A stretch of DNA of 64,000 nucleotides from Microbacterium horticulturae (GTDB lineage Bacteria; Actinomycetota; Actinomycetes; Actinomycetales; Microbacteriaceae): contig NZ_CP119108.1 of assembly GCF_029094505.1 (NCBI RefSeq), positions 1,488,001 through 1,552,000 of the forward strand, read 5' to 3'. Below are positions 2,790 through 44,368 of this stretch, piece after piece; the first letter of the stretch is position 1, and every line of letters begins with the position of its first letter. The notes under the pieces are model-generated. The model saw nothing but the letters and a program-made list of their open reading frames with translations. It ran no database searches and was not told where the DNA came from. The position numbers were made by a program, and so were the translations under genes.

Positions 2790-5339
2790 TCAGTCCTGAG
2801 CGTCGCGCGCCTGCACCGACAGCGCGCGCTCGACGCCGGCGAGGTTCTCGGCGACGATGCGGCGCAGCGCAGCGGGTGCGTCGGAGTTCTCGCCCAGCCA
2901 CGCCCGGGTCGCGTCGCGCAGCCCGGTGTTCGCCAGCGGCGCCGGGTAGAGGCCGGTGATCAGGTAGCTGGCGATCTGGTACGTGCGCGACTCCCACACC
3001 GGCAGCAGCATGTTGAAGTACTGGCTGACGAACGGCTCGAGCAGCGGCGCGCCCGCCGGGTGCACGAAGCCGAGGGCCGCCGAGCGCACCACCGTGTTCG
3101 GCAGGTCGGCGTCGACGACGAGGCTGTCCCACGCGACCTGCTTGTCGGCAGGGGTGGGCAGGGCGGCGCGCGCCTGTGCGGCGAGCTCCGAGCCCTTCGC
3201 CGTGTTGTCGGCGGCCAGCGCGGTGTCGATGTCGGCGCCGGCGACCGCACCTCCTGCGGCCAGCGCGATGAGCAGCTGCCACGAGAGGTCGGTGTCGATC
3301 TCGAGCCCGTCGAGCATCGTCTGCCCGTCGCGAAGGCTGCGCACCTGCTCCCACTGGGCGTCATTCGCGGCCGCCGAGGCGAACGCGGTGACAAGCTGCA
3401 GCTGGCTGTCGCTGCCGGCATCAGCGTCCTGGGCCAGCTGCCACAACGCATCGGCGACCCGCTCACGGGTCTGATCGCGATGCGCCGGCGCGACATACGA
3501 GTTCGCCGTCAAAAGCAGCTGGTTCAGCGTCGTGCGGATCGTGGTCGACTCGGTCTCGGCTCCGATGTTGCCCAGCACCAGGTCGACGTAGTCGCTGGGC
3601 GAGGCCTCGGCGTCACGGGTCTGGTCCCAGGCTGCGCCCCACACGAGGGAGCGGGCCAGCGGGTCGCTGATCTTGTCGAGATGCGCGATGACGGTGGCCA
3701 GCGAGCGGTCGTCGAGGCGGATCTTCGCGTAGGCGAGGTCGTCGTCGTTGAGCAGCACGAGGTCCGGGCGCTTCAGGCCCTTCAGGTCGGGCACATCGGT
3801 ACGGTCGCCGTCCACGTCGAGCTCGATGTGGTGCACGCGCACGAGCGCGTCGCCGTCGAGGTTGTAGAAGCCGATGCCCAGGCGATGCGGGCGGATGGTC
3901 GGGTAGTCGGCCGGGGCGGTCTGCACGACTGCGAATCGGGTGATGACGCCGTCCGCGTCATCCTCGATCAGGGGAGAGAGCGTGTTGACACCGGCGGTCT
4001 CGAGCCACTTCTTCGACCAGGCCGACAGGTCGCGGCCGCTGGTGACCTCGAGTTCGGCGAGCAGGTCCGCGAGCTCGGTGTTGCCCCAGCTGTGCTTGGC
4101 GAAGTATGCCGAGACGCCGGAGAAGAAAGCGTCGATGCCCACCCAGGCGGTGAGCTGCTTGAGAACGGAGCCGCCCTTCGCGTAGGTGATGCCGTCGAAG
4201 TTCACCTGCACGTCTTCGAGGTCGTTGATGGTCGCCACGACCGGGTGCGTGGACGGCAACTGGTCCTGGCGGTAGGCCCAGCTCTTCTCCATCGCGTTGA
4301 AGGTGGTCCACGCCTCGGTCCACTCGGTGGCCTCGGCCGTGGCGATCGTCGAGGCCCACTCGGCGAACGATTCGTTCAGCCACAGGTCGTTCCACCACTT
4401 CATGGTGACGAGGTCGCCGAACCACATGTGCGCCAGTTCGTGCAGGATCGTCACGACGCGGCGCTCCTTGACCGCGTCGGTGACCTTGCTGCGGAACACG
4501 TATGTCTCGGTGAAGGTCACCGCCCCGGCGTTCTCCATGGCACCGGCGTTGAACTCCGGGACGAAGAGCTGGTCGTACTTGGCGAACGGGTACGGCACAC
4601 CGAACTTGTCTTCGTAATACGCGAAGCCTTCGCGCGTCTTGTCGAAGATGTAGTCGGCGTCCATGTCGTGCCACAGGCTCTTGCGGGCGTAGACGCCGAG
4701 GGGGATGACGCGGCCCGAGGCGCTCGTGAGCTCTGAGAAGGTCGCCTCGTACGGGCCCGCGATCAGCGCGGTGATGTACGACGAGATGCGCGGTGTGCGC
4801 TCGAGCGACCAGGTCGCGGCGCCGTCGGCGGCGGGCGCGGGCTCGGGGGTCGGCGAGTTGGAGACGACCTTCCACTGCGCGGGCGCCGTGACGGTGAAGC
4901 GGAAGCCCGCCTTCAGATCGGGCTGCTCGAAGACCGCGAACATGCGCCGCGAGTCGGGTACCTCGAACTGCGTGTAGAGGTACACCTCGTCGTCGACCGG
5001 ATCGACGAAACGGTGCAGACCCTCGCCGGTGTTCGTGTAGAGGCAGTCGGCATCGACCACGAGCTCGTTCTGCGCGGCCAGGTTATCCAGGGCGATCCGC
5101 GAGTCGGCGAAGACTGCGGACGGGTCCAGCGGCCGCCCGTTGAGGGTGATCGTGTGCACGTTGCGCGCGATCAGGTCGATGAAGGTCGAAGCGCCCTCGG
5201 TGGCGGAGAAGCGCACCGTCGTGATCGAGCGGAACACCTCCGGACCCGTGGTCAGATCGAGGACGACGTCGTACTCCTGCGTGTCGACGACGGCTCGGCG
5301 CTCCTGCGCCTCGATGCGGGTGAGGTTCTCTCCAGGCAC
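2790..5339 (-). CDS. pepN: Aminopeptidase N (M1 family zinc metallopeptidase)
   Basis: An 849-residue cytoplasmic M1 aminopeptidase that removes N-terminal residues from peptides. The exopeptidase motif GAMEN is at 266-270, the zinc motif HELAH at 300-304, and the third ligand Glu323 in WLNESF. The N-terminal beta-sandwich (about 1-200) and the C-terminal helical ERAP1_C-like domain (about 500-849) are present, and the length is normal for actinobacterial PepN. It is transcribed away from the rpiB gene, with 134 bp between the two starts. The assignment is secure; physiological substrates are general peptides. Confidence 0.96.
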   Translation of the reverse strand: MPGENLTRIEAQERRAVVDTQEYDVVLDLTTGPEVFRSITTVRFSATEGASTFIDLIARNVHTITLNGRPLDPSAVFADSRIALDNLAAQNELVVDADCLYTNTGEGLHRFVDPVDDEVYLYTQFEVPDSRRMFAVFEQPDLKAGFRFTVTAPAQWKVVSNSPTPEPAPAADGAATWSLERTPRISSYITALIAGPYEATFSELTSASGRVIPLGVYARKSLWHDMDADYIFDKTREGFAYYEDKFGVPYPFAKYDQLFVPEFNAGAMENAGAVTFTETYVFRSKVTDAVKERRVVTILHELAHMWFGDLVTMKWWNDLWLNESFAEWASTIATAEATEWTEAWTTFNAMEKSWAYRQDQLPSTHPVVATINDLEDVQVNFDGITYAKGGSVLKQLTAWVGIDAFFSGVSAYFAKHSWGNTELADLLAELEVTSGRDLSAWSKKWLETAGVNTLSPLIEDDADGVITRFAVVQTAPADYPTIRPHRLGIGFYNLDGDALVRVHHIELDVDGDRTDVPDLKGLKRPDLVLLNDDDLAYAKIRLDDRSLATVIAHLDKISDPLARSLVWGAAWDQTRDAEASPSDYVDLVLGNIGAETESTTIRTTLNQLLLTANSYVAPAHRDQTRERVADALWQLAQDADAGSDSQLQLVTAFASAAANDAQWEQVRSLRDGQTMLDGLEIDTDLSWQLLIALAAGGAVAGADIDTALAADNTAKGSELAAQARAALPTPADKQVAWDSLVVDADLPNTVVRSAALGFVHPAGAPLLEPFVSQYFNMLLPVWESRTYQIASYLITGLYPAPLANTGLRDATRAWLGENSDAPAALRRIVAENLAGVERALSVQARDAQD

Positions 5340-41873: not shown

Positions 41874-41949
41874 GGGCCTGTGGCGCAGCTGGTAGCGCAC
41901 CTGCATGGCATGCAGGGGGTCAGGGGTTCGAGTCCCCTCAGGTCCACCA
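41874..41949 (+). tRNA. tRNA-Ala (anticodon GGC)
   Basis: The acceptor GGGCCTG pairs with CAGGTCC (one G-U), the anticodon stem CCTGC/GCAGG encloses ATGGCAT (GGC), and the T-arm is AGGGGTTCGAGTCCCCT. Discriminator A and an encoded CCA follow. A terminator begins two bases downstream. Its last 37 bases plus 6 bp recur at 44216-44258. Confidence 0.96.
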
Positions 41950-41955
41950 AAGAAA
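41913..41955 (+). repeat. Left direct repeat (attL-like) at the tRNA-Ala 3' end
   Basis: Forty-three bases covering the tRNA-Ala anticodon-arm end, T-arm, acceptor 3' strand, CCA and AAGAAA are identical to 44216-44258 in the same orientation. This is the expected footprint of site-specific integration into a tRNA gene that keeps the tRNA functional. Confidence 0.85.
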
Positions 41956-41980
41956 ACCCCCGGTGAAACGGGGGTTTTCT
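41951..41980 (+). terminator. Rho-independent terminator of tRNA-Ala
   Basis: A 12-bp perfect stem AGAAAACCCCCG/CGGGGGTTTTCT with loop GTGAAA and a T-run in the descending arm. A sister hairpin follows the second repeat at 44256. Confidence 0.85.
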
Positions 41981-42096
41981 GCTTCCGTAAAGGGTGTCAG
42001 CTTCACGAGATCCGGGCACTTTCCGGCCGGTGGTGCCCGCATTGCCGTTCTGGTCACGCTGCAGCTCGTCGATCTTGGGTCACGACACGCCCGGGA

Positions 42097-42569
42097 TGCA
42101 TCGTGATACCGCAGGCCAGTTCGGGCAGCTCTCGCAGCCCCGGCCGGAGATCCCCATCAACTTCGAGATCTCCGATGGGCAGCGCGTCAAGGTCGGCGGC
42201 AAATCCCACCTGCACATGCTCTTTGGCAGCCTGCGGGCAGATACCGATCCGGTGTGGGTGGTCCTGGACCGCGGGCCCATTGGTGCACAGGCAATCTGCC
42301 CCGGCAAAGATGGCCTCGTAGTCGAGAGCGGGGTGGCCGGCGGTATCCAAAATCGTGTTGTTCGGGAGGCAGGGGGCGGCAGTTCACCCGTGCGTATCAG
42401 TCGCCATGCTTGCTCGTGGATGCGGACCGCGACCACCGCGGAGGTGTTGAGTGCTGAGGAGGCAGTGACCGTTGCCTGGGGGTGGCTCCATTGCGAAGGG
42501 CTGCCGGCGGGTTTCCATGCGCGCCGACTCACGGATCGGGAGCTAAGCCTCGGCCGGCGAGGGAGCTGA
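42097..42569 (+). CDS. Doubtful ORF in the tRNA-Ala island
   Basis: A 157-codon reading frame (IPINFEISDGQRVKVGG...VWVVLDRG...) that is open from 41994. No family recognised. The opposite strand at 42054-42350 also carries a plausible 98-residue frame (DYEAIFAGADCLCTNGPAV...). Both frames share their third codon positions, so GC3 cannot decide between them. One of them, or a decayed remnant of a gene, may be real. Confidence 0.3.
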
Positions 42570-42588
42570 GCTCCGATAGCATCGGCAC

Positions 42589-42912
42589 GTGGCAGCTCAA
42601 CGTTCGCGTCGCTTCGGCGCATGGCAGCTCGGCTGGACCGCCGCCGGCGTGGCCGTCCTCGGTGCGGTCGTGGCCTTCGTGGCGAGAGCCTCGGCGCCAC
42701 GCTACGGCGAGATCGTTGCCAACCACGCTGGTTGGGCGGACGATGCGATGCGCTCTCTCGGCGCCACGATGGTTGCTCGCCAGCCTTACGACTTGGTCTT
42801 CGAGATTGCGCTCGGCATCACCGCGGTGGCAGTCATCGTCCTGCTCTGCGTTGGCGTCAGGGCACTCGGGAAGTGGAGCGCCTCGAGGCGTAACCCTCGC
42901 ACCCCCTTCTGA
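42589..42912 (+). CDS. Small two-helix membrane protein in the island
   Basis: A 107-residue protein with two hydrophobic helices (about 11-30 and 64-86, LVFEIALGITAVAVIVLLCVGV), basic at both ends. GTG 42589 is six bases after TAGCAT (42577-42582), a leaderless arrangement seen repeatedly in this window, supporting it as a real gene. Function unknown. It lies upstream of the HExxH protein gene (74 bp) and may be co-expressed. Confidence 0.6.
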   Translation: MAAQRSRRFGAWQLGWTAAGVAVLGAVVAFVARASAPRYGEIVANHAGWADDAMRSLGATMVARQPYDLVFEIALGITAVAVIVLLCVGVRALGKWSASRRNPRTPF

Positions 42913-42986
42913 CTCGTCCCTCAGGAGGAGTGCGCCACCTCGTCACCGCACCCCTCGCACCACCTATGTGCGGCAGTATTCAAGTC

Positions 42987-44030
42987 ATGACGTCATTCGC
43001 TGCGCCAGAAGTCGACTTCGTGCTGGAGCACGGCGCTGACCCTGCGTTACTCGGCATCCAGCCCTCAACGACCGCGGGGCTTCAGAGGCTAGGCCGGTGC
43101 CTCGCGGTGCTCGGTGCCAACGCCCCGCGCCCACAGGAAGTCAAGCTAGTCATCACGGCTGACTTCGTGAAGTCCGTTTCGGACCGGCTGCCGCCCGCAC
43201 AGAGAGGGCTCTACGACATCTCCCGCGGAGCAGGAACGGTGGGCGCCAAGACAATGATGGTGCGAGACGATGTGCACGTTCTCGTGCCGGCACTGCTCTG
43301 TCTCGACGCCGACGTAGCTCAGGCACGTTCCGCACCTAAGCACGCAAAGGAGATCGCCGATATCGTGCAGTTGCGCACAGGCATGCTCTACCGCTTGGTG
43401 ACCCACGAAGCGCAACACGTAGCCATGTATCAGAACGGTGAGGACGACCCCATTATCAGAGATGCGCGAGAGGGTCGGCGCAATCTCTTGGTCGCGGCCC
43501 ACCAAGTGATGACCGAGTATCGGGCCGAGCTCGGAGTCCCGGCGCAGATGAATGCCCCGACATCGGAGTGGAGCCCGATAGAGGACCTGGAGGTGTTGCG
43601 GGACGGGCTGCGCCGCGTCGCGTGCGTCGAGTACCAGAGCCACTTAAACGTGGGCAAGCTCGCCCATGATGTGTTGTACCAGGCTTCCAACCTGTGGAAG
43701 GCATTCGCGTATCAGGCCGCCATGTGCCGCGTCGAAGGTGTCGCCATCGGCGAACCCGTCTCACTGGACGTGCTCAAGACCGACGAGTGGAAGCGAATGG
43801 CTGATGCACATTGGGTGGACTTCCAAGAGGCGCTCTCCGATGCGCCCACTGGCACGACGGAGTGGGATGAGCGGGCGAGAGAAGACCTCACGGACGAGGT
43901 CGCGAACGTGCTTGACCAATGGCTTGACACGCTCGGCTTCTCGTGGAGCGACGGCCCCGCAGGGAGCCGGTTCGACATCCTGTCTTGGGACCTGCTCGAC
44001 GATGACGATGACGATGACGATGACGAGTGA
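42987..44030 (+). CDS. Unfamiliar HExxH protein, putative zincin-like metallopeptidase
   Basis: A 347-residue soluble protein. THEAQH places His140, Glu141 and His144 in an HExxH zinc motif, preceded by the helix RTGMLYRLV. TEYRAELG at 176-183 offers Glu177 or Glu181 as a third ligand, as in gluzincins. It ends in a run of nine Asp encoded by tandem GATGAC units. Codon choice is looser than in neighbours (ATA, TTA and several A/T-ending codons). No signal peptide. No family recognised; peptidase activity is inference. The start is uncertain: ATG 42987 lacks a clear ribosome-binding site, and ATG 42966 or GTG 42930 are in frame. Confidence 0.65.
   Translation: MTSFAAPEVDFVLEHGADPALLGIQPSTTAGLQRLGRCLAVLGANAPRPQEVKLVITADFVKSVSDRLPPAQRGLYDISRGAGTVGAKTMMVRDDVHVLVPALLCLDADVAQARSAPKHAKEIADIVQLRTGMLYRLVTHEAQHVAMYQNGEDDPIIRDAREGRRNLLVAAHQVMTEYRAELGVPAQMNAPTSEWSPIEDLEVLRDGLRRVACVEYQSHLNVGKLAHDVLYQASNLWKAFAYQAAMCRVEGVAIGEPVSLDVLKTDEWKRMADAHWVDFQEALSDAPTGTTEWDERAREDLTDEVANVLDQWLDTLGFSWSDGPAGSRFDILSWDLLDDDDDDDDDE
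44001..44024 (+). repeat. Hexanucleotide tandem repeat encoding the Asp tail
   Basis: Four exact GATGAC copies, preceded by a further GAC. Length change by 6-bp slippage would add or remove Asp pairs without frameshift. Confidence 0.8.
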
Positions 44031-44215
44031 TGCGCCTGCACGCCGCTGGCCAGTGCCCTCATTGGTGACCGCATTCAGTCTCCAAGTGCCCGGATTAGTG
44101 CCCGGATGGGATTCCGCAAGATTCCGGGAAGAGGCCGGGAGACACCCGGAAATCCAGGGGAGAAGCGGGTTCCTCAAGGTCACTACAGGCAGGGCCGGGA
44201 CACCAACATCACTGA
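44031..44215. other. Right part of the island without a recognisable gene
   Basis: No ORF with gene-like composition, tRNA, or integrase fragment is seen between the HExxH gene and the right repeat. Short CCGG-rich imperfect repeats (near 44110-44155) are visible but not interpretable. Confidence 0.5.
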
Positions 44216-44258
44216 CAGGGGGTCAGGGGTTCGAGTCCCCTCAGGTCCACCAAAGAAA
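44216..44258 (+). repeat. Right direct repeat (attR-like), tRNA-Ala 3'-end remnant
   Basis: Identical over 43 bp to 41913-41955. It lacks the 5' two thirds of the tRNA, so it cannot be a functional tRNA gene. With the left copy it delimits an insertion of 2303 bp. Confidence 0.85.
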
Positions 44259-44280
44259 CCCCCGGCTCGTCCGGGGGTTT
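44256..44280 (+). terminator. Hairpin after the right repeat (probable original tRNA-Ala terminator)
   Basis: A 10-bp stem AAACCCCCGG/CCGGGGGTTT with loop CTCGT and a short T-run. It has the same position relative to the repeat as the terminator after the intact tRNA. Confidence 0.75.
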
Positions 44281-44368
44281 CGTGCTGTGCGGGCGGATCG
44301 CGCCTGTCAACCCCCTCCATCCGGCGAGCAAGAGCGTCTAGGTTTCCGAGCAGATCGGAGGGCGGATC

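Follow-up and report, generated by a model that had tools for sequence, protein, structure and literature searches.

The 64-kb stretch of DNA analyzed here (the window) contains a small island in the 3′ end of a tRNA-Ala(GGC) gene, and we read this island as the residue of a larger tyrosine-integrase element rather than as an active satellite, with a probability of about 0.78. This reading draws on the ends of the island, on the lack of an integrase match in the window, and on what was found beside this tRNA in further members of the genus.

The tRNA-Ala(GGC) gene (plus strand; 41874–41949 according to ARAGORN and 41874–41946 according to Rfam) is the integration target, and its 3′ part forms attL. 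The attL core at 41913–41955 and the attR core at 44216–44258, both on the plus strand and 2,303 bp apart, are the two copies of a 43-bp repeat made up of the last 37 bases of the tRNA gene and the next 6. The original prediction that the tRNA 3′ end is exactly duplicated at 44216–44258 is confirmed: the two copies agree at every base, and the agreement stops at the first base beyond either end. Aligned more loosely over an 86-bp register, the left and right copies are 81% identical. Each copy had also been assigned its own terminator hairpin. Strong hairpins are present at and after the left core (41951–41980, plus strand; fold −22.7 kcal/mol, z −6.14) and the right core (44255–44281, plus strand; −21.5 kcal/mol, z −4.30), but a simple terminator scan called neither, and we use the term terminator because of fold and position. 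Both hairpins are fully paired and differ in sequence, and for each of them, none of 200 shuffled sequences folded as well. An element that integrates into a tRNA 3′ end usually brings the left copy and its hairpin with it, whereas the right copy and its hairpin were already in the host. On that logic, the right-core hairpin is the host's own tRNA terminator.

Sites resembling the arm-type sites of tyrosine integrases are found next to both cores. The 64-kb window has three exact copies of the sequence GTGCCCGGAT, one of them inverted ~55 bp inside attL (42010–42019, minus strand) and two forming the tandem GTGCCCGGAT TA GTGCCCGGAT that ends 108 bp before attR (44086–44107, plus strand, with copies starting at 44086 and 44098). 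None of the three exact copies is more than 130 bp from a core, and the copy at the left end is inverted relative to the two at the right. In 100 simulated windows of equal dinucleotide make-up, GTGCCCGGAT occurred on average 0.28 times and at most twice, so that none reached three. When one mismatch was allowed, 8 sites were found versus 7.96 expected, and 56 of 100 shuffles reached 8. Because one-mismatch sites are at the chance level, only the exact copies carry weight. A one-mismatch copy (GTGCCCGCAT, 42033–42042, plus strand) may be a further arm site but counts solely because it has a near copy in a related genome, G145, which also has a near copy of the inverted site at the matching place. 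Each arm-like site falls between a core and the cargo, which is where arm sites of tyrosine integrases are located.

The exact tandem is unique in the 3.65-Mb genome. At up to three mismatches, two matches were found there (the exact one and one with three mismatches), compared to one match of a backward control pattern. Since the host genome has no second exact tandem, no helper element with such arms is evident in it. Scanned for elsewhere, the exact tandem was present in 42 genome stretches and two viral contigs. Three of these 44 stretches contain a tRNA, one (viral contig L119) has an integrase match, and none has both; in this integrase screen, five of eight query integrases were read in the right frame, as judged by length. 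Most of the matches look like coding coincidences, since 40 of the 44 lie inside open frames of at least 150 codons. A tandem adjoining a tRNA-Met (L085) was rejected as a parent, as it sits inside a 973-codon open reading frame (ORF). In L119, the tandem (5253–5274) and the integrase match (29% identity, 88–627) are ~4.6 kb apart, and no inverted copy of the GTGCCCGGAT 10-mer was found on this contig. No intact parent element with these arms was detected among the 44 tandem-bearing stretches.

The claim that the island carries no integrase holds for the tyrosine type. Pfam family PF00589 has eight matches in the genome, none of them in the 64-kb window and the nearest ~76 kb from the island, and none of the three island ORFs matches a Pfam family at the cut-off. 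The own integrase that would mark an autonomous tRNA integrative element, searched for as the tyrosine type (PF00589), is thus absent from the window. A different integrase is located beside a tRNA at ~1.184 Mb of the same genome (L069, 1040–1400), together with a second, broken tRNA-like copy and, as seen by eye, GGGGACCA-type repeats; this locus is probably a separate integrated element.

We compared 46 tRNA-Ala(GGC) sites, taken from 32 of 34 genus relatives (G003 and G023 were dropped), 11 chosen genomes, G224, G331, and G145. The span fetched 3′ of the tRNA was at least 4.9 kb at 37 sites and 0.9 to 4.6 kb at nine. Within this span, a second tRNA 3′ end (24 bases, up to four mismatches, both strands) was found at none of the 46 sites, nor was a second copy present on the forward strand of two further 20-kb pieces from each of four genomes. 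Single tRNA ends are the rule among these sites. The single-end sites are not perfect empty sites for the island because the right flank of the window is absent from all fetched loci; accordingly, a true empty site with this flank was found in none of them. In 14 of 42 loci where both genes were seen (L134, L137–L139, L141–L143, L147–L152, and L231), tRNA-Ala(GGC) is opposite to rsfS and faces it at a distance of ~0.15 to 11 kb.

G145 is the sole examined genome that keeps the same host genes on both sides (nadD, rsfS, and the tRNA, then TetR and SBP). At this locus (L183, 7452–8998), the left end matches that of the window in 33 of 41 bases, arm sites included. It is followed by an HTH_17 domain that, according to Pfam, is cut off after 27 of 51 model positions, and then by a VbhA antitoxin gene; the ORF adjoining the latter has no Pfam match and is Fic-like by reading. 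In the window, attR is followed by an SDR gene; G145 retains only about the last 61 bp of this gene (alignment of 157 bp at 87%, from 45136), so the right end of its island is deleted into it. G145 carries a decayed sibling of the window's island at this tRNA. A pattern consisting of the tRNA end and a nearby TCCGGGCA matched 4 of 366 genomes: the window's own, G145, G224, and G331. In the last two, the match lies directly behind the hairpin, and no further likeness was seen in the 150 to 300 bases read. A family-wide pattern search gave 2 matches in 398 and missed the window's own site, making it uninformative.

An integrase match was obtained at 2 of the 46 tRNA-Ala(GGC) sites, in a screen where six of eight queries were in the right frame and divergent integrases may be missed. 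In these two genomes, G018 and G183, a tyrosine-integrase ORF and an HTH_17-type ORF are located within 1.7 kb of the tRNA. The integrase ORF points away from the tRNA (tblastn match at +415 to +1512), and the HTH_17-type ORF precedes it. Pfam confirmation of both refers to G018 only; the G183 ORFs are nearly identical to those of G018 in translation. The left flank of G018 and G183, also present in three genomes that gave no integrase match (G335, G017, and G031), differs from the left flank of the window, and tRNA-Ala(GGC) is therefore a repeated integration target with at least two kinds of end. This second type of left end is seen over the first 100 bases 3′ of the tRNA in five genomes (loci L130, L227, L225, L125, and L140).

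The second tRNA end might instead have been made by a local duplication or an assembly artefact, with no site-specific integration involved. Slippage or misassembly can create repeats, and a duplicated end was found in the fetched span at none of the 46 relatives' sites. Such an origin is very hard to reconcile with arm-like sites at both ends and unrelated cargo between them, with hairpins of different sequence 3′ of the two copies, and with the similar left end and mobile-type genes found at this position in G145; the genome is also assembled as one contig. We consider it highly improbable. The core repeat, the arm-like sites, and the integrase and HTH_17-type ORF at the same tRNA in G018 and G183 together lend good support to the original prediction of a footprint of site-specific integration.

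According to the reading that we prefer, an element would have entered the tRNA-Ala(GGC) 3′ end through tyrosine-integrase recombination of a 43-bp attP core with the tRNA. Integration would have restored the tRNA and left the host's original end as attR. A later deletion would then have taken the integrase, the excisionase, and nearly all else, while sparing both att cores, both arm sets, an intact HExxH gene, the gene of an orphan membrane protein, and a gene stump. The island would now be unable to move itself, but its intact ends could let an incoming element that encodes the same integrase excise or mobilize it, as happens with cis-mobilizable elements. The remains in G145 and the integrase and HTH_17-type ORFs in G018 and G183 point to a recurrent integration site and to the island as a residue. 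Against this reading, the loci searched yielded neither an intact parent nor a true empty site that has the window's right flank. The exact identity of the cores would also fit a recent arrival or selection on the ends.

Selection on the ends is part of an alternative in which the island is a true satellite, i.e., a minimal non-autonomous element that another element, using the same core and arms, would mobilize in trans with its integrase. Exactly identical cores, the presence of both arm sets, a small compact unit, and a tRNA that serves as an integrase target in the genus are all compatible with it. However, the HExxH gene, the ends, and the membrane gene occur together in only one of the genomes searched, the lack of a second exact arm tandem leaves no helper evident in the host genome, the island likely contains a gene stump, and 13 of 14 HExxH relatives have no tRNA within ~10 kb. 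We therefore regard a satellite as unlikely. The original prediction had allowed for either a satellite or the stripped remainder of a larger island; the remainder is favored because of the G145 island, the likely gene fragment, and the absence of a second exact arm set and of a second copy, while the satellite gained no positive evidence.

The island ORFs, all on the plus strand, were scored using codon statistics trained on 40 ORFs of the window (training mean of 0.51 bits per codon). The HExxH ORF (42987–44000) scored 0.28 bits per codon, with −0.17 or less in other frames, and the small ORF scored 0.19, with −0.19 or less in other frames. These scores lend modest support to the island ORFs; the small one is weakly supported because antisense frames, such as that of rsfS, reach 0.22. 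A stretch overlooked in the original prediction, at about 42096–42342, has a coding signature in the frame of the ORF at 41994–42569 (0.39 over 42099–42342, with 0.22 in one antisense frame). The signature is lost after ~42342, and since the score drops to −0.26 within the same frame, this stretch is likely a gene fragment. No convincing homologue of it was found.

The small protein (107 amino acids, 42589–42912) has two hydrophobic segments, with 19-residue windows above 1.6 starting at 13–19 and 66–80. It is an orphan in what was searched: the best E value in 32 other genomes was 0.009, and plasmids gave no match. The HExxH protein (42930–44030) has 366 amino acids when read from GTG 42930, and its true start may be ATG 42966 or 42987. 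Its HExxH motif reads HEAQH, and the glutamate in EYRAE is nearly invariant. At its end is an aspartate run (GAC/GAT repeat, 43998–44027) that is absent from aligned relatives. None of the three island proteins matched PADLOC at E values up to 5, and matches to PHROG were weak at most.

The HExxH protein had been described as unfamiliar, and indeed it matches no Pfam, NCBIfam, or PADLOC family. Within the genus, 14 of 365 other genomes contain relatives (15 of 366 when the window's own genome is counted). A class-wide draw gave 4 matches in 394: the protein itself, one from the same genus, and two weak partial ones. Three actinobacterial plasmid records match at 24 to 28% identity (one at 2e-15, two near 1e-3). 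Phage records yielded no match, and six stretches of viral contigs that matched the HExxH pattern were rejected, none being a relative. Close relatives were not found in genome contigs, and the gene is single copy in its own genome. A tRNA is located within ~10 kb on either side of 1 of the 14 relatives (~7 kb away) and of none of the other 13, a distance that still leaves room for larger elements. In an alignment of 13 proteins (the window's and 12 of the 14 relatives; L065 and L066 were left out), E160 and H163 are present in all 13, the first histidine in 12, and glutamate 200 is nearly invariant. The first histidine is lost in L056 (PEAQH), and the L064 relative is truncated. A single-sequence fold of the protein had a mean pLDDT of 43.7. 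Matches to PDB sequences were spurious-looking or weak and were set aside, as were weak Pfam matches of single family members, the best of which (0.011, to baeRF_family2) was seen in 1 of 13.

The neighborhoods of the relatives (L053–L065) differ from one another and contain PDC-S28, PDC-S46, OLD-like, Mrr, CHAT, PIN_12, and other defence-type genes. When 20 neighbors were compared to Pfam, seven passed the cut-off (DUF488, Mrr_cat, DUF4238, PIN_12, CHAT, DUF5677, and AAA_15); of these, we take Mrr, PIN, CHAT, and AAA_15/OLD-like to be defence-type. We also collected 104 neighbors of 13 relatives (without L066), taking four genes to either side as called by a simple script. They matched 50 PADLOC families at E values up to 1e-8, compared to 30 families for 104 control genes from 13 tRNA loci, although the control set is longer (45,789 versus 25,892 amino acids). 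Among the matches listed (25), the control families are mostly JetB/JetC, with LmuA, mad2, and IetA. The contrast is qualitative, as models rather than proteins are counted and the matches listed number only 25. When 20 chosen neighbors from 12 loci were scanned singly, 8 of them, from six loci, matched at E ≤ 1e-5, some via generic ATPase models. The plasmid relatives adjoin HsdR and an AAA ATPase; Swt1-type HEPN, helicase-related, and TIGR02391 proteins; and an Xre-RES pair.

We read the HExxH protein as most probably a zinc-dependent peptidase and as part of conflict or defence cargo. Its family, unmatched in the curated libraries searched and often near defence-type genes, could be tested as a candidate new component of defence. 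The original prediction of defence, toxin, or bacteriocin-type cargo thus gains ground for the HExxH protein through the neighbors of its relatives; the small membrane protein gains no such support, and the pair of genes, when sought elsewhere, was not found among the genomes searched. The chances are only a little short of even that the HExxH protein is an ordinary accessory enzyme on variable DNA, with the defence neighbors reflecting the tendency of such regions to collect defence genes. No defence model matches the protein, the first histidine is lost in one relative, the neighbors differ between loci, and the control genes also have some defence matches. What this explanation accommodates less well is the variety of defence-type families around the genus relatives and beside the plasmid relatives. 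A bolder combination, in which the island is a working minimal carrier of 2.3 kb, reduced to its two recombination ends and one conflict gene, that borrows integrases of other elements at the same tRNA and the HExxH protein is an undescribed metallopeptidase phage defence, strikes us as quite improbable.

Among known systems, the island is best seen as a residue of the type of cis-mobilizable elements (CIMEs), which would combine intact ends, no integrase, and one conflict-type gene. CIMEs derive from integrative conjugative elements (ICEs) and are thought to arise by deletion. Like them, the island is bounded by attL and attR (43-bp cores with arm-like sites), has cargo, and has no recombination or transfer genes as judged by PF00589 in the window and Pfam on the three ORFs. 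Unlike for CIMEs, the search gave no parent ICE that has these ends, and no conjugation genes were seen; only the left end is common to another element, the decayed G145 island, and the mobility of the island is potential. Compared to actinobacterial tyrosine-integrase elements at tRNA 3′ ends, the island has a core that restores the tRNA and arm-type-like repeats at both ends, and an integrase and an HTH_17 gene are present at the same tRNA in G018; it differs in having no integrase or excisionase and in a left flank distinct from that of G018. PICI phage satellites are likewise small, site-specific, and in principle dependent on another element, but they normally keep their own integrase and regulators, and no integrase, regulatory, or packaging genes were found in the island. 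The HExxH protein shares the motif and a downstream glutamate with ImmA/IrrE and SprT, known HExxH zincins of conflict systems, but has no Pfam, NCBIfam, or convincing PDB sequence match. Overall, the locus is a tRNA site at which mobile elements came and decayed several times in one genus. As an island it is ordinary, and what merits further work is the HExxH family. As a fossil with both ends intact, the island could be used to test cis-mobilization in actinobacteria.
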